64,000 nt of DNA. It comes from Fragilaria crotonensis. Its lineage: Eukaryota > Bacillariophyta > Fragilariophyceae > Fragilariales > Fragilariaceae. Below, piece by piece: positions 6,291-43,006 of the stretch. The first letter of the stretch is position 1; each line of letters starts with the position of its first letter. A program made the translations under genes and the position numbers. The stretch is from assembly GCA_022925895.1 (NCBI GenBank), contig JAKSYS010000080.1:62001-126000 (forward strand), in the 5' to 3' direction. The notes below the pieces were generated by a model that did not search any database, was not told the DNA's origin, and saw only the letters and a list, made by a program, of their open reading frames with translations.

Positions 6291-8119
6291 CACTGTCTTT
6301 ATTTGCCATCGGCGTCAAAGTAGGAGACTAAGCAAAGAAGTGGTTAGGGTGGAATCGTAAAAGAAAGGTTTGTTGGCAGAAGATTCTCAGACTGAAATTG
6401 AAAGTGCCCACTGATAAGTATGACATCATAGCTTCTTGTCACTACTAAGGAACTATGCAGACCAGCACTAACTAACGAGTGGATGAAGCATCGTCAAGAT
6501 ACTAGCGCCACGTACGGTACTCTATTTGAAGATGACAAATATAATGTCAAAGTTGATGGTCTGGCAACGGCAGTCCACTCCAAGCCAAGAGCAGCACCAA
6601 TGCTGATGATGATGGACGATAATCCCTCCTTGCAATTTCGATCATCATCGTCGCTCCAGTGCACTTCTAGCTAAGGAAAGGTGATGAGCATATCAGATAT
6701 CACATAACTGGGAGCTACCTCAAAGATTACTTGCAACGTCGACATTTATGAAGTGAAGCGGTCTGGCAAATGGTTGATCAGACTGCCTTTGGCAGACATT
6801 TCAGATTTGCTTCCTGGCACATCAATCAAGGCAGCTGAAATTTGTTCAGGGAAAATGCTCATTGGATGGCAATCTGCTCTTCAGGGGTTCCATCCCACCA
6901 GCAATTCTTGATGACACTGGGAGGAATGTTGCTGGCTGATTATGACAAGGTAGACCTGTTACCAGCTGGAAGAAGTTGCACACACAAGGCACTGACAGCA
7001 ATCTGCTGATAAGACGTTTGCTTGCGAAAGGTGCAAATCAGCCGGGTTCAGAGGAAGAAGATTTCGGGAACAATGATGCTGAAGCATGTTCTACTGCCTT
7101 CGTTTGTTCAATGATGCCCTGATTTGACTGTCATCTGCCTGTACTCTTTGGCTGGTTATGTTGCGTTGCTGCTGGTGGTGATTAGTGCACATTAATTGTG
7201 TTTGGCCAAGGAGTTCTGTTCAAGTTAGCATTGTTTTCTTGAGTGAAGTCATCATGGAAAGTTGTAGTGCTCTCCTTAGGGAGGCAATCCAGCTAATTAG
7301 ATTGCCAGGTGCTGAGACAATGAAGTGGAAGGCTGATTTGGTAGTTGTGGTGATGCCATTGCTAAGAAAGGCGTTTCACATTAAGTTAAGATGAAGAACT
7401 TGTCGATAGAAGCTTTAGTGGCACGACCTCCACATCTGCCCACTCGGAATTTGTGTACAATACTGGTGTCTCTTATGAAGTGCATGGAGGGCATGGCCAA
7501 GTCACCTTGCAATCACTGTTGAAAGCACATCAGAAGGTGCGTAATGGTGAGCTTTCCTTTACATGGCGAGATTTAGGCAGTTAATGGTGATAATATGGTT
7601 GCTTTTAACAATATTATTGTTATAACTGACATTTACATAGGTAAATCATACACGTGTATGGGGCATATGTACTAATGCGTAGCTAGATATCGGCATGTCT
7701 TCTTATTTAATGCAACATTGAAGGTTTGTTCATAAATTTTACATTTTATAGATGTAACATTTGAAAACTTTTGCTGTTCGCTTTGGACATTTGTGATGTA
7801 GTATGGAACATTGGATTGTAATTTTACATTTTATTTTCTTATTTAACGACATGCACCGGCGATTGTGCGCATATTTTACCGCCAATTCTGCCATTTGATT
7901 TGGATCTTGCGCGCTTTAAAATTTTCCACTGAACGTAAAGTTTAAATGTGTAACCATGCTTTGTACCCACTCAAAATTTCATGTCATTGTTTCACACGAG
8001 TATGTATCTTGCAAACGTTTTGCTGTTAAGTATTCACTCTTGTAATTGTATTTGTCCAGTCACATAAATGGTTTTTTTCACAATCATCGATTCACTTTTG
8101 ACTTTCAAGAACTGCTTTC
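6291..8119. other. Non-coding or heavily decayed transposon sequence
   Basis: Only short ORFs (6483-6674, 7185-7394) are present and none is recognisable. A fragment near 6750-6900 can be read as Trp-rich protein pieces broken by stops, so it may be an old element, but I cannot name it. From 7560 to 8045 the sequence is AT-rich with no visible gene. Confidence 0.4.
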
Positions 8120-11100
8120 ATGTCATCGGTGCCAACTGGTGGTAGTGTTCGTTGTGCATGTTGCAATGCAGCTTTCCATCGACTGTCCAGTCACCTTTCT
8201 TGGAATGCACGTTGTGCCGCTTTCTACGATAGCTTGCCATCAGATATGGTCAACAACGGAGTTCTTGATGACGTGCACAGACCTGATGCTTCAGATTGCA
8301 ACGAGGAATGTGATACCGCTGGTGCAGGACAATCAAGAAAAAATTCTAGGCGTGAAACAACAGTTGACAAACCAATTGATGACCATAACAATGAAGGGTT
8401 TGATGACGACTTTGGTATGATGTCTGATGGTGATGTCTCTGTATGTAACAGCAGTGAAGAATCAGAGGATGAGAGCGAGGACAATGAGATCCCTGATGGG
8501 ATCATTTTGGACTTGTACGAGGAAATGCAGGAGTTACGATTGAATCCATTCGGTTTGGACAGGTTCTCTGGTGAAGAAAAGGTACATATAGAGTTATTGC
8601 ATCTACTGAAGGAACTAAAAGCGCCACTGAAAGCCTTTTCAGGCATTCTCAATTGGGCTGCAAAGGCAAATGGCCAGGGTCACATATTCCATCCCGACTG
8701 CCAACCTTCTCGCCGCAAGGTTGTCCATAACTTGTATTGTCGGTACAACATGAAGGGATTGATTCCGAAGGAGAAGTTGTTCTACCTCCCTTACTCCAGG
8801 AGGACAGTACCAATGATATATTTCGATGCCAGGGAAGTCTTCGCATCCCTACTCTCCTGCCCTTTGCTGAATCGTGATGAAAACTACCTATTCGATTCGC
8901 CAGAAAAGGATCCTTTCATTGGTCCCCCCAAATCATCGATGATTGGTGACATCAACACAGGACAGTGCTACCGAAAGACATACGAAGCCCTCGTGAAAAA
9001 TCCAGATGTCGATATGATTTTACCCACAATCGTGGCCATGGACAAGACACAGGTCGACACTTACGGTAGGCTTCAAATGGAGCCACTGACCATATCCCAT
9101 GGTCTTCTGAAGCACAGTGTTCGTTCGAAGCACACCGCAATGCGAATTCTTGGTTATGTTTGTCATAGCAGCCCTGCACACCAAACCAAGATGCAAGGCG
9201 GTGTTCCTGATACTGTTACACCGCGCCCATACCTGCCTGACGGCAGCGTGATTGCCCGTGTACCCCTGAAACCACTCCCAGGTTTGCCATGGGCAACATA
9301 TTTACTCAACGAGATGCACCTTCAGATTGAGTTCATCCTCGAAGTATCGGGATACCTTGACCTCCAACGTCACGGATTCAAGTGGAATCTCCATTACAAC
9401 GAGAGAGTGTATCCAGTGGTGCTGCACCCCTATATTCCCTTCATCATTGGGGATACCGAGGACACGATCGCCTCTGTGGGCATTACACTGCCCGATTTGA
9501 AAAGGTCAAGCAGCTTTGCCGTGTTTGCGAATGCCCCACACGTTTATCAGGGTACTCGAAGGCAAAGTTTAACCACAGGAAACCAGCAGCCATAAACCGA
9601 TTAATCGCTGGTGCCAACTCAGCTGTAAGTCAAGTAGGTGCCACCGCAAACCTGAACGCACTCAAAGACATGTCACAAAACTATCTGCGCAACGGCTTTG
9701 GCAGGGCTCGTTTCGGATCACACAATGAGCGCGGAATTTTTGGCGCATGCCCTGGTGAGATGTTGCACCTTGTATCGCTAGGTTGGTTCAAGTACTGCCT
9801 CGAAGCGTTCGCATCCCAAGCGGGGGCAAAATTCTGTGGCAGTGAAACGTTATGACGCGCTGTGTGCAAGAATTGGCACACAATTGTCAAGACATAGTGA
9901 TCGTGACCTCCCAGAATGAACTTTCCCAAGGGCTTCTCATCTGGTACAAATCTCATGGGTCACGAGATCACTGGATGCCTCCTGGTGAAGTTGTTTGCAC
10001 TTCATACCACCTCATTCAAGAACATATTCCCGACCAAGAAGAAGCCCCCCAAGAAGGTGATGGCGAAGCACACGAAGGTGAACCACATGAAGCCCAAGGC
10101 GAAGAAGGCGGGGGAGCCAGAAGGCAAGGCAAAGAAGAAGAAGGCGAAGAGCAAGGCAACGAAGAGCATCCCCACCCATCCCGATCACAATCTCCGCTTC
10201 GAATGCCATGTATCGGATTGGATATTGGCCGTGTCGTCACTCCTCCAGTGGCACCAGTGGATGAAGCAACCGGAAATGCCAAGGCATCAAGTCGTGAAGT
10301 CCAAATACGCAGTCCAGTGGCTCATGCGCAATGTTGCAAACATCTGTCCTCGACAAACTGGAATGGGAAACAACACGATCAAGAATCATCTGGTGTTACA
10401 CATTTGCGAAGATATTTTGGACCATGGTGTGCCCGAGAATGTGAACAGTGCCTACGCTGAATCTGCTCACATACCACTTTCCAAGATGACAGCCCGGAAC
10501 ACACAAAAAAGGGCGAAGACTTTCACGAAGCAAGCGGCAGAACGATATGTAGAGAACCTCGCCATTTCGTCAGCAGTTTATGACATGGAATGCGACCACG
10601 CCAGCATGGCGAGGGGAAGGTCAGCAGCGGCAGAGGACAGCAACACATCAGCAGATAAGTGGAAGCTTGGCGGCCGGAGGTTCACGATCTCATGGCCTCT
10701 TGGCGATGCACGTCCATCATTCCAGTGGTTTCGCAAGTATCCAGGGGATCATCCCCATGGAGACTCCCTGCAGGGGAAGGCAATGCATTACCTTGCAACG
10801 TATTGTTTGCCCCATACAGGGGATGGGGAGCTTCGGTGTAGCACAGAGTTCATCTCCGCTGAGGGACACAAATACAGGGCCCATCCAAGCATCTATGACG
10901 GTCAACCATGGCATGACCACGCCATGGTCGAGTGGCCAAACTATAAGTATCCCCATCCCCTCCCAGCCTTCATCCACACGTTCATTGACTTGCGAGACCT
11001 GCCTCCGATCACGAGGATCAACATCCCCGAAGTTGGACAAGAACCCATTAAAGCTGGCGTGTATGCACTGGTGCACTCATTCCTTGCCATCGACGAGGAA

Positions 11101-11565
11101 AACACCAGAATGGACAGCAACACCATGATTGGGCGTTACAAGATGTGGTACCACGATGAAGAAGCAACATACCCGATTTTATATCTGATCGACGTCAGAA
11201 ACATCGTGGGACCAACGATTGGAATTCGCGATGTTGACCCCACTGTTCGTGAACAAGACGAGTCTTTCCTCTTCCTCTTCCTAAGGAAAGAAGAGTGGGC
11301 ATCAGCGTGGGACACCATGATCACAAGCTGCCACAAAGACAGGCATAAACCAACTTTTGAGAAGGATTACGAAGTGAAGGTTCGTAATGAAAGAGATGGT
11401 GATCATGATGAAGACGAGGATAATGATGAAGACGAGGATGATGATGAAGATCAGGATGACAACGACGATGATGAAGGTGATGATGAGTCGGATGACGACG
11501 ACGAATCCGAAGTTGATATTGTTGCCATCAGGTCACATGAAACACGGAAGAAACAGCGAAGGTAG
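8120..11565 (+). CDS. Plavaka/KDZ-like transposase with frame breaks
   Basis: The product starts at ATG 8120 with paired Cys residues (Cys-Ala-Cys-Cys...His...His), which could be a zinc finger, then an acidic linker and a long transposase-like region. A segment near 9440-9520 reads Gly-Asp-Thr-Glu followed, after a one-base slip at about 9461, by His-Asp-Arg-Leu-Cys-Gly-His-Tyr and a Cys-x2-Cys pair. This resembles the RNase-H-fold core of Plavaka elements (KDZ superfamily). A conserved-looking Lys-Gly-Phe-Ser-Ser-Gly-Thr-Asn-Leu-Met-Gly-His-Glu segment follows at about 9922-9963. Two more slips lie at 9840-9855 and about 9910. The C-terminal part (about 10640-11380) is globular and ends in a long Asp/Glu tail. 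I call the family from this layout and not from a search. Whether it is active depends on whether the three breaks are real. Confidence 0.6.
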
Positions 11566-11592
11566 ATGTCATCTTTGCTATTAAAAGTGTTT

Positions 11593-14048
11593 TCACCGGA
11601 TCATCTTCGGAATTCGGTATGTAGTAGCATGGGGACTTTCCACAGGCAACAAGGGTTCAGTAAACTTCGGCACCACACCACCATCATCCTCATCATCATC
11701 ATCGTCATTATCGTCAGCAGCCTCATAAGCAACATGAGAATGCCTCCGCCGCGATCTCTTCCTAACTTTCTGTCGTCTCCTCCTCTTCTTGGCACTTGTC
11801 GCTGGCATGCTTGACTCTTCCAAGTCACCACTGGCAATGGCAGCAGCTGCAGGATTGGGGCGTTCAGGACGATCCACAGCCATAGCAGCAGACATCTTCC
11901 TCCCGGCGTCAACCACTCTTTCCTTTGCCGCAGTAAACGTCCCATACAGATGATTCTCCGTATGTCGCACACTTCCAGCCCAATCACCAGCGGCCCCTTC
12001 AACAGGGTGACCATCCGGTTCCGACACCGACGTACAGTGTCGGATATCTCGACCATCCCAGCTTACGGCAACTCCGTTCGTGATCTTGATAGCAAGGCCA
12101 GCAAAGGGGACCCAGGACGACGTCCATGGATGTTGGGCATCACAAGATACCAGTTCGTTCCCTTTCCAGGAATGTCTTCCAAAAACTGACTGTAACCTTG
12201 AGAGGCATCGTTGAAGTCATAATGAGAAGCGTTTCCCAGGTCGACACTCGTGTCGACAGTGTATCCAACTCGCCGTCCACCCTCACCATCCATCGGCACC
12301 ACAGGATGGAGACCACAATTCCCCTCAGTGTCGCGGATCACAGCATATACCTGAGGAAAGGCACACCTCCCAATCACTGCGAGGGAGACGACCATTTCCC
12401 TAAGGAGAGCCTCACCCACAGCCTCATTTGCCTTGTATGCGCTTGTGGTGACACCATCCAAGTGCACATGAGTTCCAATCGCATGCATGGTGCCGTAATC
12501 ACCAGCATTGGACCTCGCTGCACCCTTCTTCTTTGCAAGTCTCAAGGCCTTATTATGCTTTGTAATACAAGCCATCGCATCCAAAAGATCCTCACCCCCA
12601 TCGTCAGTCAGGAAGTTGACATTCCTCACCATGATGACCGACTGCCGATTCCTCTGCTGACCAAGGCAAGGTAGGTCCACCATGATGTCGACAAAGTGTT
12701 CAGATGCCGGATCGATGATCCAGCACGTGTCCGGCAGACGATAGTGATGACACCCCTCGGCATAGTGACGCCCGTCCCGCCTTGCACTGTTCGCAACTGC
12801 AAGGCGTTGGTTGTATTCTACCGCCAGATATTCCCGTGGGATGTCGGGATGCCATGAACCATCGAAGACATCAGGTGCCATCTTCGGGCCGTCGCTGTCC
12901 CGACATTGTTCCACCCTGTAGACAACCCGATTCTGCTGCAAATCCTTCGTGAGGTTCAAGGAAATTCGCCATGCCGAAACACGGTCAACGAATTCGTCAA
13001 ATCGCCCACATGAATAGCCACGGTACTCCAGGTACCGAAATTGTTTTGGTTCTTCCATATGAAATCGCTTGACATACCCTCCCTTGCCGAAGGTGTACGA
13101 CACCTTCCCATTACTGTCGGTGCTCCTCTCAAGGCGAAGCCAGCTCATGTCCAGGGCCACATGTGTTTTAGCCACACCGACATCCTCCTTGCGACGCTCT
13201 CTGGCACAGTAGAAAACGCCACATTGAGGCAAGAAGAGTATCATGGTGCGAAACTTGAAATCATTCTTATCATCAAGATCGTCTTCATGGTATGATCTGA
13301 CCAACAGGACATCATCTTCACCCCCCACCACCGATGAAGCAGCCTTCTTTGTTGGAAGCTCGGCACTTGGTTCGGTTTTCATCAAAGGCGATCTATTGAG
13401 GATGACATCCATGACGTAGATCTCGCTGAGGAAGCATGACTCCATCCCAGAGAATGGGAACATGTCAGCCGCGCATTGTAGTTGGTGTACGAAGTCGCAT
13501 CCGTATGCAGCGGCTATCCAAGCAACGTTAGTGTTGCATACCTTTCGCGTCGTTCCAGCCAGGGGACACGGAGATGTCTCCTTCCCAGTCGCGAAGGCAT
13601 GATAGCGCTCCTTGAAGTGAGCTCTATCCTCAGGAGGCACCGCCATCGACAGCAATAGCATAGCTTGTCTCTGCGACGGCAGGAATTTGCGCTCCGGTCG
13701 ATTCGGCAAGCATGGACCGTCATAGCCACCAACATCGCCTTCATTATCGCTATCGCCATCAACGTCAAACAACAAGTCATCATCCTGATCGCTATCGCTA
13801 TCAACCTCAAATACCAAGTCATCATCCTCCTTTCCATTATTCCCATCAGCGTGGATGTCATCCTGGCCATTGTGACAAACGCCATTTTTGCCGTCAGTCG
13901 CACAAGACGATGATCGCTTCTCCTTCGCTGACGCCCCAAGGTTTCGCAAGCCTGTCGCACAAGACGACGTTCGCTTCTTATTAGCTATACTGCGCTTATT
14001 ACGTCGACTGGACGACATAAAGTTCTCGTCTTGCTCCTTCGTAGGCAT
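11593..14048 (-). CDS. Transposon-linked protein with a candidate 2OG-Fe(II) dioxygenase fold, one frame break
   Basis: The ATG at 14048 opens a 661-codon frame. One base slip near 12105 moves the product to the frame of 11593-12027, giving roughly 800 residues. The N-terminus is Lys/Arg/Ser-rich, then acidic. Near the C-terminus a strand-like segment carries His-Tyr-Asp (His codon 12222-12224), fitting the HxD iron motif. About 60 residues later comes Val-Ser-Trp-Asp-Gly-Arg-Asp-Ile-Arg-His, whose His (12037-12039) fits the distal iron ligand of a double-stranded beta-helix. I could not place the Arg that would bind 2-oxoglutarate. The tail is basic, then acidic. The gene converges tail-to-tail on the transposase with 27 bases between stops. 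TET/JBP dioxygenases are known companions of KDZ transposons in fungi; membership of that family here is inference. Confidence 0.5.
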
Positions 14049-14267
14049 CGTTCAACCCACTGGATGGCAGGGCACGACGTCAACTACAAAAGAACGACAA
14101 GAGAACGTTCACGCCGCGACAGTAGACAAAACCAGCGATCCTGTTCTCGTGTTGCTCCTTCGCAGGCGTCGTTCAACCCACTGGATGGCAGGGAACGACG
14201 TCAACTACGAAAGAACAAAAGAGAACGTTCACGCCGCGACAGTCGACAACAACAGCGATACCAGAGC
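14026..14267. repeat. 121-bp imperfect tandem duplication
   Basis: Two copies with a few differences start at 14026 and 14147; both contain GTTCAACCCACTGGATGG. The first copy covers the start codon of the minus-strand dioxygenase-like gene, so the repeat occupies its 5' leader or promoter. Confidence 0.85.
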
Positions 14268-15416
14268 GACAATCAACAACAATAACTTGCCATTGCCAAG
14301 AAAAGCAATAACAAACGGTGTGTTGTTGTCGTCGAATTGAGTGAATTTATTCTACGAACAAATGGCGTAGAAAACATACCGCATTGCAGATGCGAAATAC
14401 ATGTGTATCCGAAAAAGGGAAAATGCGAACTGACTTTACTATGCATTTTACAGTGGAAAGCTATCCCAGGATTAACCTGGGACTTCAATGCAGAAACGAT
14501 TGAAAAATCTATTTCTAAATGTCTTCAAGCTGCTTACAACAAAGCACTGTACAAAACATACCGCAGAAATTTTTATTCATGATACTTAGCGAGGACCACA
14601 CCTGTCCAGCGCACATAAGTACTGATACGGTTAGTTTATATAAATATTCGCATTTGAATAGTATATTATAAACATTTGAGCACCATCATAATACTTAGCG
14701 AGTTACACACATGTCCATTGCACACAAGTACTGGTATAGTGCTTTTATATAAGAACAAGGATACGAATAGTATAAACACACACATGAGCACAGTGATTAC
14801 ATTTAAGGAGAAACACATGTCCAACGCACACATGCACTGGTAGAGTGCATTTATATATATATACGCACTATTAAATTGTTAATTTGTATATATATATCAA
14901 CACACATGTCAAATGTACAAGTTCATTAGTATTAAAATCATAGTCTCTGTTACTCTATGCGTAATATGAGGACGTTGATTCGGAGTGTCGAAGTGCACGT
15001 GCACTTCAACGCACGCACACGCGTAGATACAGTACCAGAGCGAAGTCCTGCCTTGCATCGTGAGGGAACACCCAAATATTGAAAACGACTGACCATGCCC
15101 TATACGCTTAAACTGAACCGTATATTCTTACATAGAAGCCATATTGCTGTTACATGAGCAATATCTCGTTTATTCAAACGATGCACATGCATTTTTAAAG
15201 CATTCAACTACACTTTTGAGTATACAATACATACGTATGCACATTTGAGGGGGTTCGCATTCACTGTTTGAATGGGACTTTGCCACAATAATTTGTGCAG
15301 CAAACACCATTATTGATACCATAGAATCGCAAAACAGAAAAGGAACAAACACAACTCATCGCTCTTCTGCTTCTCTAGTTGTTTTCATTGGCTTCACTTG
15401 AGTTGTTGGACAAACC
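14268..15416. other. AT-rich spacer with about 110-bp imperfect tandem repeats
   Basis: From 14580 to about 14880 three diverged units share ACACATGTCC followed by CGCACA(C/T)A and a (A/G)TACTG-like block, starting near 14583, 14693 and 14803. An 81-codon ORF at 14337-14582 is unrecognised. The rest has no visible gene. The repeats could be subterminal repeats of the transposon (inference). Confidence 0.5.
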
Positions 15417-17171
15417 ATGACAGGCTCACCACGAACAAGGTCAACAGGACAAGTGAGAAAGTCTCCACGACGGAACAACGTCGGACAGAAGACAGGAAAG
15501 GTAAGGAAAAGTACTAGTGTAGCGAGAAGAAAGTCGACTGGGAAAAGAATTGCGACCAAACCTGCCCCAAAATTGACGTTGCCAGCGACGACGTCGACAG
15601 CAATGATGAAGTGGAGGAGGTGGACAATAATCGTGATCAACGAAGGCAGAAAACTAAAGTCTCATCGAACGATGTGGACGATGTTCTTGAACAACCAAGG
15701 AAGTTAACACTCGTGTCGTCAAGGGAAGGAGCCGTGAAAAGGAAGAAGATGACAGGAAAAGCCAGAAAACCAGTGAGAGCGCCCAAGTTACACAAATCAT
15801 CATCATCGTCATCATCTTACGAAAATGAATCTGACCCGAGCGATGACGATGATGGAAATCTTTTTGCAGGCCGCGTCGTTCCGAACCCTACAATTGCAGC
15901 CGTAGTAGAGGTTTTGGAGGATGATGATGATGATGATGATGATTGCGCAGATAAGAAAGAAGCAGGTGACGCCGATGAAGAAGATGACTATGCGAGTGCA
16001 ACAAGCCACGAAGAGACTCCTCCGCAACGCTCAAAGATACAGAGGAGACTTGATGACGAGGATGTGGAGGATGAGGACAGAGAAGATGACTATGCGAGTG
16101 CAACAAGCCACGAAGAGACTCCTCCGCGACGCTCAAAGATACAGAGGAGACTTTATGACGAGGATGTGGAGGATGAGGACAGGAACAATCGCGCAAGTTC
16201 GACTAGTACACTAAGCATGCAACGCAAGAGTTCCGGGAGGAAAGAAAATGGTGAGTCCGCTGTTGTGAACCTTGACGTACCAATTCGTGGCATGTCCAAA
16301 AGTGAATCGAGGAGGAATCAGCAAGAGTATGCGACACAACGGGTTAAGGCATTCGTTACATCAAAGGTGTTTCGAAAAATTAAATTTATAAGCAATGATG
16401 ACATGTTACGAGAGGCGATGGATTGGGTGATGAGGCATGAAAAGGTCCCACAGGACAAGCGCTTGATGTATCGGGTGGTTTACGAAAGTGTCTTCAATGA
16501 GTCGTTGAATGCAAAGAGGAGTACATGCGAGACGGCGGGAAAGAAGATTGTGGTGGAGGAAACGATGCCCAAATTCCAAGAGAAGGGCAAGGAATTGTTC
16601 ACCATCGAGGAGTTGTGTACGCTCAGGCGGGCAAAAACCGAACGTGAAAAGGAGGCTGCGTTTTGGTTCTTTGGCGAATTCTTGTCCTGTGTGGTTGGAA
16701 AACGAGTGTGGAATGTTCAAAAGCAATATCAACTGATCTCACAGGCAACGATGACGGGTAGCAGTGACAAGCTGGTCACAGTAAGCGACGAGGCATTTGC
16801 TCTACTAATGTACGAAATTACCAAGATAAGTGGACGAAACAGGGTAGTGCACAGGCAGGACAATCGGAGCAAAGCGGAAAGAAAGTAATTCGGGAAAGTA
16901 TACCGTTCAGAATAGTGGGACCTGCAAATATGGCGGATGGAGTCATGCCGGCATGAGGCGCTTTAATGAGCTGTACGACTTGGTTGTTGAGGACAGGGCT
17001 TGCCCGCAGGCTGCTGCAGTGGAAAAGGAGTTCCTAAACTATTGCATTAAAGAGGGAAACAGGAAGAAGGTAGGAGGGAGAATAAGTGATGAACCGACTG
17101 CCGTTGAAGGGTCAGCCAGCATGTTGCAACCACGCTATATTCGAGCGGCGTGGGATTTGAATGATGAGTAG
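15417..17171 (+). CDS. Acidic/basic ORF with a C-terminal conserved-looking domain, two frame breaks
   Basis: The ATG at 15417 starts a Lys/Arg/Ser-rich N-terminus. At the AAAA run near 15574 one base appears to be missing, and the frame then continues to a stop at 16886. A second slip near 16880 leads to the frame ending at 17171. The middle part is Asp/Glu-rich and contains a 34-residue tandem duplication. The C-terminal half (about 16290-16840) is helical and not low-complexity. It is followed by Lys-Tyr-Gly-Gly-Trp-Ser-His-Ala-Gly-Met and Arg-Phe-Asn-Glu-Leu, the sort of motif seen in transposon accessory ORFs of diatoms (recollection, not searched). The same strand and proximity to the transposase suggest a third gene of the element. 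No enzymatic motif was seen; a DNA-binding role is only a possibility. Confidence 0.5.
15980..16183. repeat. 102-bp in-frame tandem duplication
   Basis: Two copies starting at 15980 and 16082 differ at only a few bases and encode 34-residue acidic units beginning Glu-Asp-Asp-Tyr-Ala-Ser. The near identity indicates a recent duplication. Confidence 0.9.
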
Positions 17172-17769
17172 TGAACATTTTTACTAAATTAGTATATTTC
17201 GACACCGCCATTGATGAGTTACTAGTCCCTACAAACATTGGAACCCCAACAATACATTGCTTAGGAGAAAAAAACCAATGGCGACTTCATAACATTCAAT
17301 CCAACTTTGAATTTACATACATGCAATATAATGTCCGATGCGATACAACTAATGGCGAGAAACACACAATGTATTAAGTGATAATCAACAATAATTGTGA
17401 TTAATATGTTCAATACATACGTTTAACGGTGACAACATAAGATATATGGGGAATGTAACCATTTACATGTGACTTCCAAGAACTAATGAACAGTATTGTG
17501 TGTCTTCTCAACATTTAATTGTTGCCTCACCATATAGTGCTTTCTGATGCAGCCATCATATTAGGTTCAGTATCAAGAATTGCTAAAAATGAAGTTCCAA
17601 TCATAAAATAGCGTGGAAGTCAACGGATTGGCAATAATATGATACAGGAAGAGACCATGACAATGACATGTGGTACATGGTGCACCACATTGTATTTAAA
17701 GTAAGCATCATACTAGCTAAAGGTTGTGCCTGGTCTATAGTACTGAATCTGTGAATACAAGCAAGTGTT
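17172..17769. other. AT-rich spacer, no gene seen
   Basis: No ORF with protein-like composition and no terminal repeat was recognised here. Confidence 0.5.
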
Positions 17770-18560: not shown

Positions 18561-18812
18561 AGAGATGAAATAATACGATGAGCAGTTGGTAGCGACCGTC
18601 GCTTGCTCAAACGACAGGTTGCCGTCGAGTGTGGGAGATGGAGCTCCTTTTTGGATCAGGTAGTCCAACAGGAGGTTTATACTCAAATACTTATTCTCCC
18701 GAAGCGCCTGCACATGTTCTGCATGTGCCAAGAGAGCAAAAGTGAACCTTTGGTCTCCTGAAAAAAAGTTCTTCTCAACAGCCGCTCTTCTTGGCTTCTT
18801 CTTTGGTGGCAT
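18528..18812 (-). CDS. Hypothetical 94-residue ORF beside the Copia relic
   Basis: The ATG at 18812 opens a frame with a basic Pro-Pro-Lys-Lys-Lys start, which looks like a nuclear signal, and a helical Leu-rich remainder. I do not recognise it. It is on the same strand as, and next to, the retroelement relic, so it may be another decayed piece. Confidence 0.25.
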   Translation of the reverse strand: MPPKKKPRRAAVEKNFFSGDQRFTFALLAHAEHVQALRENKYLSINLLLDYLIQKGAPSPTLDGNLSFEQATVATNCSSYYFISQHERNPLFVK

Positions 18813-19696
18813 AATGAGACAAGAAATCAGTGACAGGGACTGTCAAAAAGGGAATGGGGAGGGAGAGGGTGATGCTGTTGATGATAATGAATGGCTGATG
18901 AGATTGTGTTGTCTTGGTGTCAAAAAAGATCGTCGTTGTACAATTGTACAGCACTGTATACAAGGGATTTTTGTTATTGGCCGGTCTCAAGCCCAAGAAA
19001 TCTGAAGACGTATGACAATGCGAGCAGAATGTACCCAAGAGCACACAAGATGACCACATACTTCCTCACACCAACAAGCCAAGCCTCGTCAATGGAATAA
19101 CACAGCTTATTTCCTCATCAGTGGGAAACACATGATAATGCTAAGCAATGCATGAGATCCTTACCTTTGAAAGTGTGTCAACGTGTTGGCTTTGTACGTT
19201 ATGGGGTATGATAATCTGTGTGGAGTTGAAATTGGCACCATCCAAACAGGTGTTATTGCAGATTGTAACAGGTGTTATTGCAAATTGTGTAAAACATAAG
19301 TGGTGCTATTGCAAAAATTGCAAAAAGATAACAGGGGTTATGGGTATATTAAAAATTAGCGTGCTATTATTGTCATTTGAGGGGGTATATTATAGCAGAT
19401 AGCAGGTGTTTTCAATTTTTGGAGTAGATAACAGGTACAATAGCAATTTCCCCTTTTTTTATTGGCATGATTTAACGGTTGCTACGACTGTAGAGGTGAA
19501 AGGGGTATGTCGGTCTGTCGGATGTCGGTATGTAGTATGTAAGTATGTAAGAATAGTATCTATGTCATACGTCATACTACTTGTATGCCAGAAATAATGT
19601 TCTCGTATACATGCTGTGTAACGTGTATCATACGATCTTGTAGACTTCAGTAATAGTTCATGTAGCGGGCAATTCTTGGAGCATTACAAATGCGCC
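18813..19696. other. Spacer upstream of msrA with short repeated CAGGTGTTATTGCA-like motifs
   Basis: Between about 19245 and 19450 motifs of the type ACAGG(T)GTTATTGCA recur several times in a GT/A-rich stretch. No gene is seen. The last 60 bases before 19697 presumably hold the promoter of msrA, but no defined element is recognisable. Confidence 0.4.
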
Positions 19697-21298: not shown

Positions 21299-22095
21299 TG
21301 AATGACGAGATCACACCATTTTGGAAACAGATTTTCCATAATTACGAGGTACTGGAGTACTAGTAGTCTAGTCCCTCTCTTCTGACCTGCTGAGCCATCT
21401 ATGTTCTATGTACACTTCTCTCCAGGAAGCGTACAGTTGCTCATACTTCCGTAACTCCGAGTTTCGAGTACTTGTACTCCAGTACGCGACACTGCTGTAA
21501 GAATGCTCACTACTTGGACTACCGGTACTAGTAGTCATTCGACTACTTCAAGATAGAAGTACGTAGTACGTAGTACTGTAGTACTGTAGTAACTTGATGT
21601 ACTCTAGTAGTGGTGGGGCAATACAGTAGTACTATCAAGTGTACTGTACCTGGTACTCCGAATACTTGCGTACCTGGAGGTTCCGGAATATCGTCTTAAC
21701 TGCTTTTTGCACTTCCGTTCAGCAGTAACGGTGCGATTGTAAACCATCGGACCACGGACTTACGGAAATCAAAGGTCTTTTGTTTTGCTCTACTAGTAGA
21801 GTAGCAAGCTACCGTAGTAGAGACCTCAGGACAGCCAGCCACACAGGTGTTTAAGCTGTGGACCGTGGAATGGACATATTCTGATTCGTACGAATTTCGG
21901 TCAACTGTTTTGATGAAATGTCGGCCTGTTGATCCGACAGAATATATTTTATCATTCTTCGTTTTCTTCATTCATGTAACATTTTTACTTAGCACCAAAA
22001 TCCTACTTTCGGGGAAACTATCGAAATGAAATAAATGAATCGTGAATATGCGTCAGCGATAGGAATCTTGACATTCAGTTTCTTTAAGTTTTTCA
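21299..22095. other. Spacer rich in GTAC/AGTACT palindromes
   Basis: 21345-21680 is dense in GTAC, AGTACT and CTAGTAG motifs. An ORF on either strand near 21700-21970 is not protein-like. No gene is seen. Confidence 0.45.
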
Positions 22096-22345
22096 AAGAT
22101 GATTAAGAAGAATTAAGAAGACCCAGAATTTATTAAGAAGAATTAAGAAGACACGAAATTAATTAAGAAGATTTAAGAAGAATTAAGAAGACCCAAAATT
22201 AATTAAGAATATTTAAGAAGAATTAAGAAGACCCAAAATTAATTAAGAAGATTTAAGAAGAATTAAGAAGACTCGAAATTTATTAAGAAGAATTCAGAAG
22301 AATTAAGAAGACCCTGTATATATTAAGAAGAATTAAGACGACTGA
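22096..22345. repeat. Minisatellite array 1, about 40-bp unit
   Basis: About six units of the type AGAAGAATTAAGAAGACCCA followed by AAATTAATTAAGAAGATTTA. Purine-rich on the plus strand with TTAAGAAG as the core. The same family recurs at 26310-26575. Confidence 0.85.
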
Positions 22346-25300
22346 AAATGTCGTAAGTCTTAAGTAGTTTTAGGGATGTCCGATCAGAAAAGTTCTGTGC
22401 GTAGAATAATGAGTACAAGTGTACCAGGCTCGTTTTCTTCCATGGAAGAAAAGGGCATTCTACTACTAATACCTAAATACCGGTAGTAGCTAGTAGTTGG
22501 TGACATTTCACCTAGAACCGGTAGAACATTTTTCATACACCATTCAGAGTCAGTTGATTATCGATTTTTTACGACGTATTCACCGCCTGAATCACGAGGA
22601 TCAGTAAGGATTGGGTTCACTTCAACAGTACTCGCGTACGCATTTATGCGTATATGCCCTCCTACGGAGTACAGAGCTGGTGTGCTGGACTATGAATACA
22701 GTACTCCAAGCACTCTTGTTATGTACAAGTAGTACTCCAGTACTACGAGTAGTGCTGTAGTACTTTAGGTTTGTCGGCTGTTGCAGTACAAGTACCTGGT
22801 ACTACCTTGTACTTGCTGTACCCCGGTAGACTGCGACTACTGCAGAAGGCAACACGGTATTCGGCATTCCAGTGACTGTACCACAGTAGCATGGTGTCCA
22901 ATACACGGCAGGTTAGTAGTGGCATGGCTAAAAGTGACCTTGGATGGACTACAATTGGAAAGAAGACCAAGACTGGAAACCATGGCAGCAGGGTCTCTAA
23001 GGTACCATAGCCATGGCACCTAGAAGGATTTGGGATGTGAAGGATACTAAGGTTATATTGCTGCTGCACAAGCTTCTGTTGGAAGAGAAATCAAGTCTTA
23101 ATAATAGTAGCTTACAAGGAACACCCTTTTGCATTTACTTGGGACCATATTTGGAGCACTGATTGAGTATTTTTCCAATTGCTTATTGCTGAAGAATGCT
23201 AGGCATTATGAATTTTTTAATGCGTATAAAAGATAGCAGTATGAAAACCAGGAAACAATGGACGAGGTTATGTACTACTACTACTGCTGCTGTACTTGAA
23301 CACAGTTCTGCCAATGAAAGTTCAAGATATAGGTTATTAATATGTACAATTCTAATATCTTGTCAAACAGTACACATTTAACAACACCAAAATTGACAAA
23401 TATGCTGTCCCATGACTTCACCACTTGCATGACAAGCAAGTGAATGGCTCACCATGTCTGATTTGCAGTTTGGAGAACACAATGTTGGATACAAAAGCCC
23501 CTGGAAAGCAATTATGTTGCTCATAACAATTCAAAATTTGTGTCTGAAAATGAATTCTTCATTCAACTGAGGGGTGCTTTTTGGTTATCAGCACTTGCAA
23601 GCTCACAATTATTTCAAGTAAGTGGAGCTGCCGCTAAACCGGTAACACTATGTGATGATCAGATACATCATAACAAACTGCAACTGCAGTTTAAGATTGC
23701 GCATTTCACTCAGCCAGTTTACAGCTTGTGTTCAACTATCTTTACCTTTTCAACCATTGAAATGCACTCATTTTTCTGGCTGGAAACATGGTGAACAAGG
23801 AACTTGAACTGTTGCAATTAAGCCCAAAAGAGCAACAAGGCTGTGCTGGATCTATTGAAGTATTTTGTATCCTTGGCATCATATTTCTTTGTCAATCTAC
23901 TAGTCTCTGCCCCTAGTAGTTTCAGAGTAGTGAAACAAACAAACAAGAAACTATTTATGGGGCTTTCAGTACAGCATGACAACCGCACTGATGTTTCATA
24001 CTGGCTGCCGGTAGTCAATCTAACTGGCATTTTCACTGGTTTTTCAAGTGTTTTCAATTATATCACCTGGTTTTAAAAGTCATTGGGGCTTTATTACTAA
24101 ACCTGGAACTTCTTCTTGGGTGACAAGTGGCTTTGTGAAGCCTTTGTATTGGAGTGCCTGCTGCTAAACAAGTACTTCAGTACTGAAGTTCCATTCAATG
24201 ACAAGAAGTGTAAAACCATGAGATTCATTACTATATAAAAGAATTATTCACGAAATAACACTGTAGTGGTATCTATTAACTAAGGACTATAAGGAAGGTT
24301 GTAGAATTAGTAGTGAGTATTATCAATTTGATGTGGGGTATTTTTGAGATATTTTATACCACTTGGTGGTACCAAGCAAGAGTGGTGTTTTCCCCTCATT
24401 TACCTCATATCAAAATGCCACCACTGTACCACTTCCACGTGATCCCTCTTCTTCATGAGTTCTCCTGTACCAGGTGCTCTAGTAGAAGTGAGTACTTCAG
24501 TGCCCACTCCACAATACTCCAGTACCGCTTGCGAGTATTCAGTACTCCAGAGAATTTTCCTGATCTCACTGTCAGCTATGACTACTACACTTCAAAACTA
24601 ACTACCAGGTACTTCCAACTTCAAACCTGCATGGCCTTTTGCATTAAATATCAACTATGATTATGTCTGGACTTGTCACAAATAAGGAGGACTAGTATTT
24701 TGGTATAACATGTGGAAGGCATGAATTTCATACACCATAGTAAGCTGGTTGGATTAACAAAGGCAACTCAGAGACACTTATACTGAAACCATATGTTTTA
24801 GGAGCACATATCCCCTGCTACTTAACAGAGAGATCATAGAAGTACAAAATAGATTTTTAAGTAGTCGGACCAGTATCTGTATGCCAGCAAGCAACACACA
24901 GCATCAAGGATTGTTTTGAGAGGCTATGTGTGGAAATCATGATTATTAGGCTCGAAGATGCTGGATTCACAAAGGGTTGTGTGAAAGTGGTGAGGCTATT
25001 GATGGCAACTCAGTGGCACTGATGACAATACAACCAAATATTTCATGAGCTTACACCTGCTGGTGCTGCAATTTAACAGAGAGCAGGAGGCACACAATAA
25101 CGTGTTTTTCTAGGTACCACTGGTGGGACCAATGTACCTGAGCCAACATAATCTGCATGTTGTTATGAATTGCTCATCAATGCACCACAGGGAATGGCTC
25201 ACTGACATTTGAATTAGTCTCAGAGAAACACATTTAAAAACAAAACAAAAAAATCTGAAAGTATCCACACACCTAATTGAGAAGGAGCGAGCACACAATT

Positions 25301-36838: not shown

Positions 36839-37582
36839 CGAGTAGGTGAAATGAGTAGTGCAATACTTGGGGACGATCGCTATGTTTGCTCGACACTTGC
36901 ACTGCACGAATGGTGATGAGGTTACACGACTGTGGTACGAATATGTGGTACTGGAGTACTCTGTACTATAAAAAGGTACTGTAGTACTTGTGTACCAGTA
37001 CAAGTGCTACCGAAGACGTATGCTAGCTCTAGCTAGAGGTACAGTAGAAAGTACTATACGGAACACAATCGATAAGGATGAGGATTCAAAAAGGTTCATT
37101 TCAGTACCAGATGTCATGTATGTCAAACCTACAGATTCCTATTACTACTAGCGATGAACTAAATGTCATTCGCCTCACTTGCCTTCTGGAATGAGGAGAG
37201 TGTGATGCCAAGGAGTCGATTTGAAATAAAAAGCCAAAGGATTCAGTCCCCGTTGCCCTCTCGTTCTTCTTCGTGAGGTATTGCTATTAACGCGTTAAAG
37301 GCAGAAGAAGTTGCGAATTGTGAGCCAAGTTTCCGATCAAATTGAATTCATTCATCGCATCGACGAAACACGAAGTAGTTCAGGTACAGTACAAATAGCA
37401 GGTGCCAGTACCTGTAGTACCAAGCAAAACCACCGCGAACCCTGTAACTGTCAGTGGACTCATTCGACTAAAACGTTCATCGAAATACGGCTTGTCTGAG
37501 TTTGAGAAGCATACTGGAGCCGGAGTTCGTCTGAATTTCATTTCAACTTGGTGCTTGCATCGCGACTCCCGACAAGGTGGCA
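36839..37582. other. Divergent promoter region between PFDN4 and SIN3
   Basis: GTAC motifs cluster at 36940-37070. No defined promoter element or ORF is supported. Confidence 0.4.
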
Positions 37583-40500
37583 ATGGACAAGAACAGTGAT
37601 TCAAGCGTTGACGCATCACAACCTGCTGGAAGCGATCCAGTTGCCGGTACTTTACCGCAACCAGATGCTGGTCCGCAACCGCCTGCCGATGAGAGTGTTG
37701 GAAGCGGAAAAGCAGACACCGCAATTCGTCCTCCCTATTCAACTCCGTTTCCTCCACCATCTGATCGTGTCCGTTCCATGTACCCGAGTAAATTTGGTCA
37801 AGAGCCTGCTCGATATCTGAAACCTATTCCTCCAGATGCCAAGCCTCCTGCAGAACCACCGCAGAAAATCACTCCTTCCCCTCCTTTTGCGGCTGGCGGG
37901 TTTCCTCCATCAGCGACTGGCACGCTAGGCCCAAATCAACAACAGCCTCAGGCCCCGCCTTCGCAATCACAAAGGCCCCGCCCTCTCCCTAACGCTCGTG
38001 CTGGATCAGGAGCGCCTCCAGCTGCCCAGCCGAAACCTCAACTAGGAACTGACCGCCCACGCTTTGCAGGCCCACCCTCTGCCCAATTGCCGACTCCTCT
38101 TGCTCGTCCACAAGCGACTTCTGATGAACGTAGAGGACAAGCTGCTGGAACAGCAGGTGGAGGCCCAATGCATGTATCATCTACCGCACCAGGACCGCGG
38201 CCACCTATGACAGGACCAAATGGAGGAATGCCATTCCGAGGAGGGCTCTCAGTCGACCCTCCGCCCCAACCTGGGGGCTTCAGACCTCCCGCCAACGCTG
38301 GAGCAATGAGAGAACTCCGTGTTGAAGATGCGCTCGTCTACCTGGATGATGTAAAGCGTGAATTTGGAGACAGACCTCGCATCTACAATGAATTCCTTGA
38401 GATTATGAAGAACTTTAAGAGTCAAGAAGTAGATACACCTGGAGTCATCAACCGGGTTTCTCGGCTGTTTCGCGGGTACAACAATCTTATCCTGGGCTTC
38501 AACAAATTCTTACCTCTTGGATACAAAATTAGCCTTGCAGACCTTGAGCAAAGAGATTTGGAGTATGCTCGTCAACAGCAACAGGGACAGCAACGACAGG
38601 CTCCTGCAGGTCCAGGTCAGAAGCCGTATGCTCGACAGTGGGGAGGACCGCAGGCAGCGCCACCAAGCCATGTGATTAGTCAGCAGCAGGGACAGATGAG
38701 GGATGTTCCGGCTGGCAGCAAAGGTCCTGTGGCCCAAGCTGGACCAATTCCGCCGCAGGGTTACGTCAAGCGCGCTCCACAAGGTCAGGGCGGTGGCCAA
38801 CAAGCAATACCGCCGGTCGGTCGACCAGGACCGAAGCCTCAAGTTCCTGTTTCTAGTGGTGGTCAACCGAATCAGCAACAAGCTACTCAACCTGCGCCAC
38901 AGCAGCAGCTGCATCGCGCCACAGCAGCGACCCCTGCACAAATTTCTCGACAGCCCATCCCTCAGCTGCCTCCACCCCCACCGCAGCCACAACACCAGGC
39001 AGTAGAATTCGATCATGCCATTTCCTACGTTACCAACATCAAAAAACGTTTCGCCGATGACCCGAACACTTATCATCAGTTCTTGGAGATCCTTCACACG
39101 TATCAGAAGGAACAACGCGGAATCAAGGAAGTTCTCGAACAAGTGGCAAGTCTTTTCGCCGATCATCCGGACCTGTTGAAAGAGTTTACGTTCTTTTTGC
39201 CTGACGCTGTTCAAGAGCAAGCGAAAGAGAGGCTCCACCGAGCCGCCGCCGACTCAGAGGCTCGCCAAGCATTGGCCGCTCAACAGCGCACAGAAGAGCA
39301 GGGTGCATTTACAGGGCGTTCAAACTGGGGTGGCCCGAGGGGCCTGGAGAATCGTCAAGGACCTCCTGGACGGCGCATGAATTCTCAGAAGTTCATTGAT
39401 ATGACAGATGTCCAGCAAATGGATACTTCAGATTCTGCCGAACAAGAACCTCAGGCAAGACAGGCCACAAGTCCTCGGAAGCGGCCCTTCAGTCCAGGGG
39501 GTCGTGAGGTTCAAGCGCAGCATCCAGAGACACATGTGTACAACTCTGCCGTTGAAAGACAATTTTTCGAAGCAGCAAAGGAAGCTTTGGTCTCGTACAG
39601 CCGTGACGGGGGCCAGGCTTGGGCTGAGTTTCTCAAATGTTTGGACTTGTATGCCCAAGAATTTTTGTCAAAGAGTGAAATGTTGAGTTTTGTCGAACCT
39701 CTCCTGGGCAAGCGTAATGCCGAACTTTTTGAAGAGTTTAAGCGCATTCTGAGTGCCGCCGGGTCTCCAAGTGGACCCACTCCGACTACGGAGGACTCGT
39801 GGTATTCTGTCCCCTTGTGTGAGATAGACTTTCTTCGTTGTCGGCAGTGCAGCCCATCATATCGTGCTCTTCCTCGTGACTACCCTGCGCCTCCGTGTGG
39901 CGGGCGTAGCGATGAGGAGAAAAAGATTCTGAACAATGTCTGGGTGTCTCTTCCGAAAGGCAGCGAGGAAAGTTACACTTTCCGCCACATGCGTCGAAAT
40001 CACTGCGAAGAAGTTCTATTTCGTTGTGAAGATGAACGTTTCGAAATCGACATGGTCATTGACAGCAATGCGGCGACTCTCCGTCGATTGGAACCAATTG
40101 CAGAAGAAATCTCGCAGCTGGCGCAGGAAGAGCAGCTCGCTTCCGACGTCTATGTTTCTGGGAACAAAGGCCAAGAAGGGGATCTTGGCATGGGCGGCTT
40201 GCGTTATCAATACACATTCGATCCAGAAATTCTGGGGGTGATCCATCGAAATTCGATCGCGCGTATCTACGGTGACGCCGGGCAAGAAATGCTGGATCTG
40301 ATTGTTAAAAACGCAAGCGTCGCTGTACCAGTTGTCGTCCAGCGACTTCGACAAAAAGACCAAGAGTTTAAAACGGCGCGGGAACGATTGAATCGTCATT
40401 GGAAGGAGCTGGCGGAAATGAATTACTACAAAAGCCTCGACCACCGAAGCCTTACATGGCGTACGATTGACAAGCGCGCTACGAGTACGCGTACATTGAT

Positions 40501-41873
40501 CGCAGAAATCAAGGATAGGGCTGCGAACGGGGGCAAGGAAGGAGATGCAGCGGTTGCTGCTCGTCGAGAAAAAGCGAAAGAAGAGCACGGTTCCTTTTAT
40601 GAGATTACGATGGGAGATACGTTGGATTTGGATTTGAATGTTCTTCCGAAGCCTCATTCGTCCATATTCACACCACACATGAGTTTCATTTACGAAAATA
40701 ACTCGTGGGTTCAACGCGACGCGTATCGCATATTGTCGTTTGCGCTTGAGCGCGGGTCTACATCACCACCTGATAAGGAACGCTGTCATCGTTTGTGGAG
40801 AGATCTCTTTGGGCCTGTCTTTGGAATACCACTCAGTTGGATGCAAAAACCTGCTGTGGCCTTTCAGGAATCCACCGCTGCTAGAAGAGCGCCCGACATG
40901 CCTGTTGTCATCGTTAGCAATGGGGAGGAAAACAGTCACGAGGACGACGAAGATACCGACGACGAAGAATTGGGAAAGAATGTCGTTACCGAAGAGTTGC
41001 GAAGTGAGAACAGAAGGCATGATAAGTCCAACCTGAATGGATCTCCATCCTCTCCCCCCAGGTACGATTGTGTCTACTTTGTTTGGGGAGGGCCGCATTG
41101 TTCGATTCCGCCTCCCAGAAAAATGTTACCAAGTCGTTTTGCCTTTTGGTACTGGGTATCTCCAACCGAACACTGTGCTATGCACAGTCGAGCGCGTCGA
41201 GCAGTCGGCGTACACCACCCAGCTACGAGAACATGATGAAAGCAGTTTAGAGCGTGAGGACGATTCTCTCATCTTCGGAACGCAATCGCTGTACCTGTTC
41301 TTTCGCTTGCACCAAATTCTTGTCCGGCGTCTCAATATTGCCAAGAAAATGGCGTACCAAGTGGTAAAGGATGCCAGCTTGGCTACGTTGGTTGAACAGC
41401 TCAAGGCCGAGCCCAACGAAGACATGGGCCGAAAGAGATACGAAGCATACTTGTCATTGGTTTATGCGTTAATGGATGGTGCCCATAGTGACGCTGGTGG
41501 TAAATATGAAGACCGGGTCCGATGTCTCTTGGGGCATGGAGGCTTTGAGCTCGCAACGATGGACAAATTGCTTTCCCATATCCTAAAGAATTTGCAATCG
41601 ATCGCCCACGATGATGTTATGTTGAATCTTGTTGCCCTCTTCAGGCGTCACTGCGAGAGTGGTTTCCGTCCCGAGGCCTTTAAACAGGAGGCTGCATACC
41701 TCTCCGAAGGGGACAATATGTTTGCCTTCCAGATCAGTAGAGTGCCGGGATCCGACGATAAGGTGTTATTCATGGAATCCCTTGGTGTCATTTTCGAGGA
41801 TGACGAGCATTCTCATGCAGTCATTGAAACTGAGCCTGAACCGGCAGCCAAGCGTCCTCGTATGAAACTTTGA
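37583..41873 (+). CDS. SIN3: SIN3 transcriptional corepressor, scaffold of a histone deacetylase complex
   Basis: The frame opens with GTG at 37577; the first ATG is 37583. After a long Pro/Gln-rich region come three paired amphipathic helix domains, coded near 38315-38525 (PAH1), 39005-39205 (PAH2) and 39545-39750 (PAH3). Then comes the histone-deacetylase-interacting region (39840-40150) with Cys-Ser-Pro-Ser-Tyr-Arg-Ala-Leu-Pro and Asn-Asn-Val-Trp-Val-Ser. The conserved C-terminal Sin3 region (41270-41700) has Tyr-Leu-Phe-Phe-Arg-Leu-His-Gln-Ile-Leu. The frame changes near 41055. A 58-bp GT-AG intron at 41004-41061, with a C/T tract before the AG, restores it exactly. The alternative is one extra C in the CCCCCC run at 41054-41059, which would keep Pro-Pro-Gly-Thr-Ile-Val. 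The intron model gives about 1,410 residues. It is a nuclear protein that would recruit deacetylases to promoters. Confidence 0.92.
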
Positions 41874-42395
41874 GATGAGTATCTCTATATCGGGCGACAA
41901 GAGAGTATTGTACCCGAGAATGTCCTTGGCTCTGCTGTTTGTATGATATAATCTACTGTTCTCGTGCTCGAAGGCGATGACCTGGAACTCTATGTCACTT
42001 TTCACTATCTAGGTAGGGGTAGTAGTAGGTAGTACCAGGTACATGAGTGTGGGGATGGGTGGACTTCCTCTGATGTATGGCTAGTATGCATGCAATACAA
42101 GTACCAGGTACCTGGTACTCGGAGAACTCTTCTATGCATATGCATGTACCACCCTCCAGCACCCACAATACCCACGATACAGATGTCTGTGGTGTGACTG
42201 CACTAGTGGTCCGCACTTCCCAGCCAGTAAAAGTACGTTGTACTAAACCTAAAACCTAAAACCTGTCATGCCGTATGCAGTATGCATACATGCATACACA
42301 TGACACATGATGCTCGAGAGCTCGTAAAAAGCAGGGTTCGTCTTTGTGGGAGTGGTATGAATATAAGTAGACTACTGGTACATAGTAGAATGGTG
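41874..42395. other. Spacer downstream of SIN3, GTAC-rich
   Basis: Short GTAC palindromes and a brief CCTAAAA repeat (42244-42263) are present. No gene is seen. The last five bases before the LTR form the ATAAT target duplication. Confidence 0.5.
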
Positions 42396-42400
42396 ATAAT
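42396..42400. repeat. Target-site duplication ATAAT (left)
   Basis: ATAAT directly precedes the left LTR and recurs directly after the right LTR at 54133-54137. Five bases is the usual length for Copia insertions. Confidence 0.9.
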
Positions 42401-42995: not shown

Positions 42996-43005
42996 CCCCT
43001 CTTGG
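42996..43005 (-). other. Polypurine tract
   Basis: On the minus strand CCAAGAGGGG ends directly at the 3' LTR. This is the expected place and composition of the plus-strand priming tract. The pol stop codon is only a few bases upstream (43007). Confidence 0.8.
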
Positions 43006-43006
43006 A

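Follow-up and report, generated by a model that had tools for sequence, protein, structure and literature searches.

A recently moved Plavaka transposon of the diatom Fragilaria crotonensis carries a gene for a predicted TET-like dioxygenase

A stretch of 64,000 nucleotides from the 62.1-Mb genome assembly of Fragilaria crotonensis (GCA_022925895.1, contig JAKSYS010000080.1, positions 62,001 to 126,000; C797:62001-126000 in our own contig labels), hereafter the window, was analyzed. It contains a complete cut-and-paste DNA transposon of 10,022 bp, in which a transposase gene of the Plavaka group converges on a gene for a predicted TET-like Fe(II) dioxygenase. Transposase and oxygenase genes of these kinds lie side by side at about 60 places of the genome, and we consider it probable that the enzyme acts on the 5-methylcytosine (5mC) of its own element and counters in this way the silencing imposed by the host.

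Results

A complete and recently moved Plavaka transposon

The features of the element in the window are the following:

7526..7527, left target-site duplication CA, 2 bp, flanking the element
7528..17549, whole transposon, 10,022 bp, from copy boundaries, duplications and an empty site on contig C672
7528..7535, plus strand, left terminal inverted repeat CATCAGAA, the start of five near-identical copies
7544-7551, left subterminal ATGGTGAG, following the left terminal inverted repeat
8120..11565, plus strand, frame-broken Plavaka transposase gene (open reading frames 8120-9595, 9382-9855 and 9916-11565), assigned by a PF18759 match
11596..14048, minus strand, predicted TET-like dioxygenase gene, with one frame break around 12080-12120 and the fold taken from an intact sibling
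12216..12224, minus strand, HxD codons (His-Tyr-Asp; His 12222-12224, Asp 12216-12218), predicted to bind iron
12037..12039, minus strand, distal His codon, predicted to bind iron, in WDGRDIRHCTS
15611..16888, plus strand, third gene, for a mostly helical predicted protein, divergent from the oxygenase gene
17526-17533, right subterminal CTCACCAT, at the same distance from the end as the left ATGGTGAG
17542..17549, minus strand, right terminal inverted repeat TTCTGATG, from copy boundaries and duplications
17550..17551, right target-site duplication CA, 2 bp

The left boundary was set by five copies around 99% identical to the window, whose matches start at 7527 or 7528, and the right boundary by a stretch from 15400 that is common to seven other contigs and ends at 17549-17552. 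Duplications of 2 bp were detected in all seven copies in which both ends could be read (CA in the window, and GG, TA, TG, TA, TA and TT in the six others); of a further copy on C855 the right end alone was found. The empty site is present in contig C672 (L067, C672:14600-18500), where both window flanks are joined around a single CA with 94-98% identity, and this contig may be either the other allele or a related locus. Because of the shared ends, the 2-bp duplications and this empty site, the unit is a complete transposon that moved recently, the recent date being also indicated by the copies with around 99% identity. An extra insert of about 1.2 kb, absent from the window, was also observed in C672 some 90 bases from the insertion point.

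An earlier reading of the sequence alone (the sequence-only reading) had described the region 8120-14048 as a pair of convergent genes. This arrangement was confirmed, with the transposase at 8120-11565 on the plus strand and the oxygenase at 14048-11596 on the minus strand, but the mobile unit is larger, from 7528 to 17549, and takes in the third gene. The transposase had been called Plavaka/KDZ-like, and only the first of these names was retained. Pfam PF18759 (Plavaka) matched the first plus-strand piece (E 1.1e-8, 35.1 bits against a cut-off of 26.3) and also the intact sibling transposase on contig C529 (E 1.1e-7, 31.8 bits), where an unbroken convergent pair encodes proteins of 1155 (plus) and 741 (minus) amino acids. 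By eye, the reading of the window gene shifts frame near 9455 and around 9850-9915. Plavaka transposases are expected to have DDE residues with C(2)C and H(3-4)H motifs. The rows of sibling transposases that cover them hold the motifs AMDKT, GDTEGHD, C-x2-C and AESAH, from which a candidate D-D-E triad was picked by eye. In a hmmscan of the window transposase reading frames and the C529 transposase, PF18759 was the sole match, with none for the KDZ family PF18758; a search of the whole genome for KDZ found none either, but its positive controls were also silent. The KDZ identity was rejected, as nothing specific to this family was found and the duplication has 2 bp, against the 8 bp described for Zisupton of KDZ (PMC12730594). 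By contrast, the termini CATCA..TGATG and the 2-3 bp duplications described for PlavakaB (PMC12730594) are matched by the ends of the diatom element, CATCAGAA and TTCTGATG, and by its 2-bp duplication.

The oxygenase gene recurs next to Plavaka transposases

The distribution of both genes was studied in the whole genome. For large families the numbers of matches are lower bounds, and the numbers of places may be inflated, in detriment of our interpretation, as the assembly may hold both haplotypes and one locus could be counted twice, once for each allele. The window oxygenase as query produced at least 84 matches (60 places) and the transposase at least 102 (88 places), in such a way that 29 of the 60 oxygenase places were found at 8 kb or less from a transposase, 28 of them in convergent orientation. 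After two more queries, a more distant oxygenase and another transposase, the numbers rose to 102 and 96 places, with 47 pairs, 45 of them convergent. On C137, an oxygenase that seemed to stand alone was found to be flanked by a divergent transposase of Plavaka-like type (22% identity, E 2e-31, nothing in Pfam), which gave 42 places when used as query. In the final count, a Plavaka or Plavaka-like transposase is located at 8 kb or less from 63 of the 102 oxygenase places, and in 60 of them the oxygenase converges on one such transposase or more. When 102 and 138 points were placed at random in 2000 trials, the pairs averaged 4.4 and never exceeded 12, under a model that takes no account of transposon clustering; chance pairing is unlikely because of the orientation bias alone (60/63). 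The adjacency of transposase and oxygenase, which the sequence-only reading proposed to survey in related genomes, is recurrent within this genome.

A Mutator-like element (MULE) was also considered as a second carrier. The MULE transposase on C592 (L064 1861-4815, that is, C592:57860-60814; PF10551 with E 6.1e-12, and a weak SWIM finger match below the cut-off) is convergent with the oxygenase copy at C592:61969-63624. Only one of the 102 oxygenase places has a MULE within 8 kb, and the case was treated as a coincidence. Relatives elsewhere were found neither in the viral_contigs and genome_contigs sets, by short conserved peptides, nor in phages, by tblastn, none of these searches being made in a eukaryote collection.

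Predicted fold and active site of the oxygenase

An AlphaFold model was built for residues 45-645 of the C529 oxygenase, a sibling and not the window copy, after aligning 29 pieces found in this genome. The predicted local distance difference test (pLDDT) was 80.8 and the predicted template modelling score (pTM) 0.86. Foldseek returned 11 matches in the PDB at E<=0.001, ten of them to TET2, CcTET and CMD1 (E 2.3e-9 to 1.1e-5) and the eleventh to FTO (9.5e-5); in a library of viral structures the fourth hit was a phage protein annotated with a JBP1/TET domain, the first three being unnamed. In VIA-align, rows 1-16 were all TET2, NgTET1, CMD1 or CcTET, with Z from 17.4 to 13.2 (TET2 17.4, NgTET1 15.2, CMD1 14.2, CcTET 13.9), and the next was ALKBH3 with Z 10.4. 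According to this model the protein is a TET-like Fe(II) dioxygenase with a double-stranded beta-helix of the TET type.

The conservation of the putative iron site was measured in the 29-row alignment, counting the rows with a residue at each position. The His and the Asp of HxD are conserved in 24/24 rows and the distal His in 22/23, the sole row without it being out of frame there, while the other frame at that locus reads RHCTS. A core alignment was made with 17 rows picked for holding both motifs, and all 17 rows tried had both; in this core the His, the Asp, a second Asp at H+5, the distal His and a Thr at distal His +2 are invariant. The Asp at H+5 is present as well in the 24 segments taken from the 29-row alignment. 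This position is described as contacting the N4 of 5mC, through Asp or Asn, in CMD1, TET2 and NgTET (PMC7854593). The two His had been noted as about 60 residues apart: the pair itself was upheld by its conservation, and the spacing was found to be 62-64 residues in 15 of the 17 rows, 67 in the subfamily of the window (L013) and 73 in L024. Thus, neither of the contrary results named by the sequence-only reading was obtained, the predicted model having a TET-type beta-helix and both His and the Asp being conserved. In the model, fold, iron site and base contact look TET-like, but we do not count it as an established member of the TET/JBP family.

Reading frame and selection on the oxygenase gene

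The minus-strand reading frame of the window extends from 14048 to 12063 and, after one break, reads on to 11596. The distal His is outside this 661-residue frame and was read in another one (P0002, VSWDGRDIRHCTSVS) past the break. Frame breaks also exist in other copies. Gap openings and substitutions were counted along 7528-15600 between the window and the five copies around 99% identical. The ratios of gap openings to substitutions were 11/16 in L014, 15/11 in L015, 27/26 in L017, 29/21 in L016, and 15/4 and 8/3 in the two pieces of L013, so gap openings exceeded substitutions in four of the five copies. The single-base gaps fell mostly within runs of one base (6/9 in L014, 10/13 in L015, 18/24 in L017, 16/21 in L016, and 10/11 and 3/6 in the L013 pieces). 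As gaps outnumber substitutions and are mostly single-base in one-base runs, the sequences suggest assembly error more than decay, although some breaks may be real.

Selection was studied by the ratio of nonsynonymous to synonymous substitution rates (dN/dS) in pairs among 18 oxygenase reading frames, 12 of which pairs reached 250 aligned codons with a dS below 2. Among these, five informative pairs (dS 0.13-1.9), not all independent and three of them near saturation, gave dN/dS of 0.15-0.26; the seven pairs with dS <=0.04 gave values from 0 to 0.80 and are too close to judge. Within the limits of these five pairs, the coding capacity of the oxygenase appears to have been preserved in lineages in which as many as half of the residues differ. 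Convergent pairing and purifying selection together argue that the element, and not the host alone, benefits from the oxygenase.

Two peculiarities of gene structure were observed among the copies. In those on C637, C110, C773, C649, C30, C393 and C177 the matches are split at a common query residue around 589, pointing to an intron that these copies would have in common, upstream of the HxD region. In a second clade (C285, C466, C829, C122 and C63) the stop-to-stop frames have 1115-1494 residues, with possible long extensions beyond the core; the Pfam scan of C285, the sole member of the clade scanned, detected no domain.

A third gene in the element

The third gene produced at least 103 matches in its own genome, merged into 92 places. 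Of the 47 cases in which it neighbors an oxygenase, 46 show the two genes in divergent orientation. It was also found at 15 kb or less from 20 transposase places where no oxygenase was detected. The motifs KRS.CE and VT.SDEAF.L are invariant in the 10 rows of its alignment, and the AlphaFold model (pLDDT 75, pTM 0.76) is helical. No Pfam match and no fold match in the PDB at E<=0.001 were obtained. The product is probably an accessory protein of the element, belonging to no known family.

Discussion

Proposed role and its alternatives

In Phaeodactylum, methylation is described as confined to transposons (PMC12344493), and loss of DNMT5a is reported to correlate with a global loss of methylation and with overexpression of young transposons (PMC9998398). 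The genome studied here contains 13 rows of C5-methyltransferase matches on 9 contigs. In the mechanism that we favor, the host would methylate the cytosines of young transposons, the dioxygenase of the element would flip out and oxidize 5mC on the element, and with the repressive 5mC lost or replaced, the transposase gene could be expressed or the ends bound. We infer here DNA as the substrate, 5mC as the base and relief from silencing as the benefit. The same role was proposed, without experiment, for fungal elements with TET/JBP genes (PMC12730594).

Several results weigh against this interpretation. The minus-strand gene had no meaningful Pfam match, either in the window or in the intact sibling, and no match to Pfam Tet_JBP; searches with its sequence in the PDB found no TET and nothing credible, the search in PHROGs gave no match, and PF12851 had 0 matches in the whole genome, with a weakly positive control. 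The TET-like assignment comes from one predicted structure. Of the HxD...H...R pattern on a beta-helix anticipated for a 2-oxoglutarate (2OG) dioxygenase, the helix and HxD...H are present and the conserved Arg is missing: no column with Arg or Lys in at least 10 of the 17 rows exists from distal His +1 to +33, which makes the use of 2OG uncertain. A TET-like enzyme need not make 5-hydroxymethylcytosine (5hmC) in vivo, since Naegleria has one and yet 5hmC is reported as not detected there (PMC12344493). The observed/expected ratio of CpG was 0.78-0.97 in 11 loci with paired elements including flanks, inside the range of the 4-kb bins of the window (0.64-1.14), so CpG depletion was unusable as a footprint of methylation. 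Co-divergence gene for gene was likewise not used, as the Mantel r of 0.79 (1/5000 permutations) decreased to 0.67 without L023 (8/5000) and to 0.25 without L023 and L028 (671/5000 at least as high).

Part of these data could be explained by an enzyme similar to CMD1, that would not make 5hmC with 2OG but use another co-substrate (vitamin C or similar) to put a bulkier group on 5mC, marking or shielding the DNA of the element, an explanation that we regard as rather unlikely. CMD1 has H345, D347, D350 and W358 at H, +2, +5 and +13, followed by H397 and T399, and W358 is described as occupying the place of the 2OG-binding Arg, the aligned CMD1 Arg pointing away (PMC7854593). In the diatom core, the H, D and D have the same spacing in 17/17 rows, Trp is at H+13 in 16/17, the invariant Thr at distal His +2 stands as T399, and Asn is found in 16/17 at the position aligned with TET2 R1896 and CMD1 R410, which precedes the stacking Tyr/Phe by six residues, this pairing of columns being by spacing and not by residue-level structural alignment. 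Moreover, CMD1 was aligned over model residues 26-586 with 14-15% identity, versus 10-11% for TET2. On the other side, TET2 has the higher Z, the subfamily of the window has Phe at H+13, and the first Arg/Lys column, at distal His +34, is Lys or Arg in 17/17; some 2OG enzymes use Lys, and the Thr is present in TET2 too. Less probable still is the wider statement that diatom Plavaka elements carry such an enzyme to mark the DNA of the element itself with a bulky form of modified cytosine, with vitamin C for example as co-substrate. If true, dozens of transposons in this genome would carry an enzyme that writes a noncanonical base, and a silencing mark of the host would have been turned into one owned by the element.

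We also give a low probability to a 2OG oxygenase acting on N6-methyladenine (6mA), thymine, RNA, histones or the transposase itself. CcTET is reported to be active also on 6mA, and thymine or RNA has been discussed as the real substrate of the Naegleria TET-like enzyme (PMC12730594 and PMC12344493, respectively); FTO and ALKBH rows come next after the TET rows in the structure searches. Nevertheless, all the 16 TET rows at the top lie at least 2.8 Z units above the first AlkB row, and the Asp at H+5, where 5mC enzymes contact the base, does not vary. That both genes are pseudogenes of a dead relic, which no longer makes the enzyme, is improbable: the frame breaks of the window and of other copies would fit with it, but copies are around 99% identical, with gaps mostly of one base in base runs, and the C529 pair is intact and the five informative dN/dS values are low. 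A chance neighbor or host gene outside the transposon is hardly credible. Although 39 of the 102 oxygenase places have no transposase detected within 8 kb, 29 of these 39 also lack the third gene, and a reading frame beside the lone oxygenase at C87:156444 reads by eye like a DEAD-box helicase, the convergence of 60 in 63 neighboring cases argues against it, and for the window copy it is refuted, since the gene is inside the 10,022-bp unit that was copied and for which both the duplications and an empty site were found.

Comparison with known systems

The partnership between transposases and TET-type dioxygenases is already known from fungi; here it is present in a diatom, with a different TET-like type. 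Kojima 2025 describes TET/JBP genes in eleven fungal transposon lineages including Plavaka, in such a way that elements of Agaricales likewise combine a Plavaka transposase and a TET-type dioxygenase (PMC12730594). The fungal Plavaka genes are of the PE type, with HxE (PMC12730594), whereas the diatom oxygenase has HxD in each of the 24 rows that cover the motif, and differs also in its host, in the extra third gene and in the 60 convergent cases of a single genome. Fungal KDZ transposons with TET/JBP genes show the same general partnership, but the diatom transposase is Plavaka, with a 2-bp duplication. CMD1 of Chlamydomonas (Z 14.2) has in common with the diatom protein the TET-like fold, the HxDxxD spacing, by spacing also the Trp at H+13 (16/17 diatom rows), the Thr at distal His +2 and the lack of an Arg reaching the far end of the co-substrate; unlike the diatom gene, it is not described as transposon-borne in the available part of that report (PMC7854593). 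Human TET2, Naegleria NgTET1 and Coprinopsis CcTET share the fold and the iron triad, and TET2 and NgTET1 also the Asp/Asn at H+5, at 7-11% identity, but the diatom oxygenase has no conserved Arg where R1896/R289 bind 2OG.

In a word search, diatom and stramenopile were absent from Kojima 2025 (PMC12730594). A paper on Ectocarpus transposons mentions accessory genes in giant elements of KDZ and EnSpm, and the words Plavaka and dioxygenase are absent from it (PMC12477816). By title and start of the abstract, we found no publication on a TET-like gene on a diatom transposon, most subscription papers being beyond reach.

The presence of this partnership in a diatom, with around 60 places paired with a transposase and some copies around 99% identical, implies that these elements could remove or alter the marks by which they are silenced in their hosts. 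It makes the arms race between transposons and methylation testable in photosynthetic stramenopiles, where a model diatom represses young transposons with DNMT5a. The enzyme lineage, with an active site resembling that of the vitamin-C-using CMD1, may also yield new DNA-modifying enzymes.

Host genes and other features of the window

The probable diatom host proposed from the sequence alone is in agreement with the silicon transporters of the genome (19 match rows, best E 4e-193), from which the host can be recognized as a diatom. One of these regions, C97:29749-33762, has a single open frame of 1456 residues that fuses three silicon-transporter units.

Elsewhere in the window, a gene for a Sin3-type co-repressor (PAH repeats, Sin3_corepress), probably a host gene, was detected at 37577-41233. 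The region 42001-54000 shows a strong G-over-C skew and reading frames on the minus strand, one of them with a Pol_BBD domain (45712-47586), a pattern compatible with a retrotransposon. A repeat of around 820 bp at 18629-19454 has 12 more matches at 89-91% identity, and in 8 matching contigs an inverted second piece lies some 3-4 kb off, as if the two were the long ends, in inverted orientation, of a DNA element. A separate repeat at 21673-22500 has nine matches of around 730-870 bp, cut by the end of the query, with 81-97% identity.

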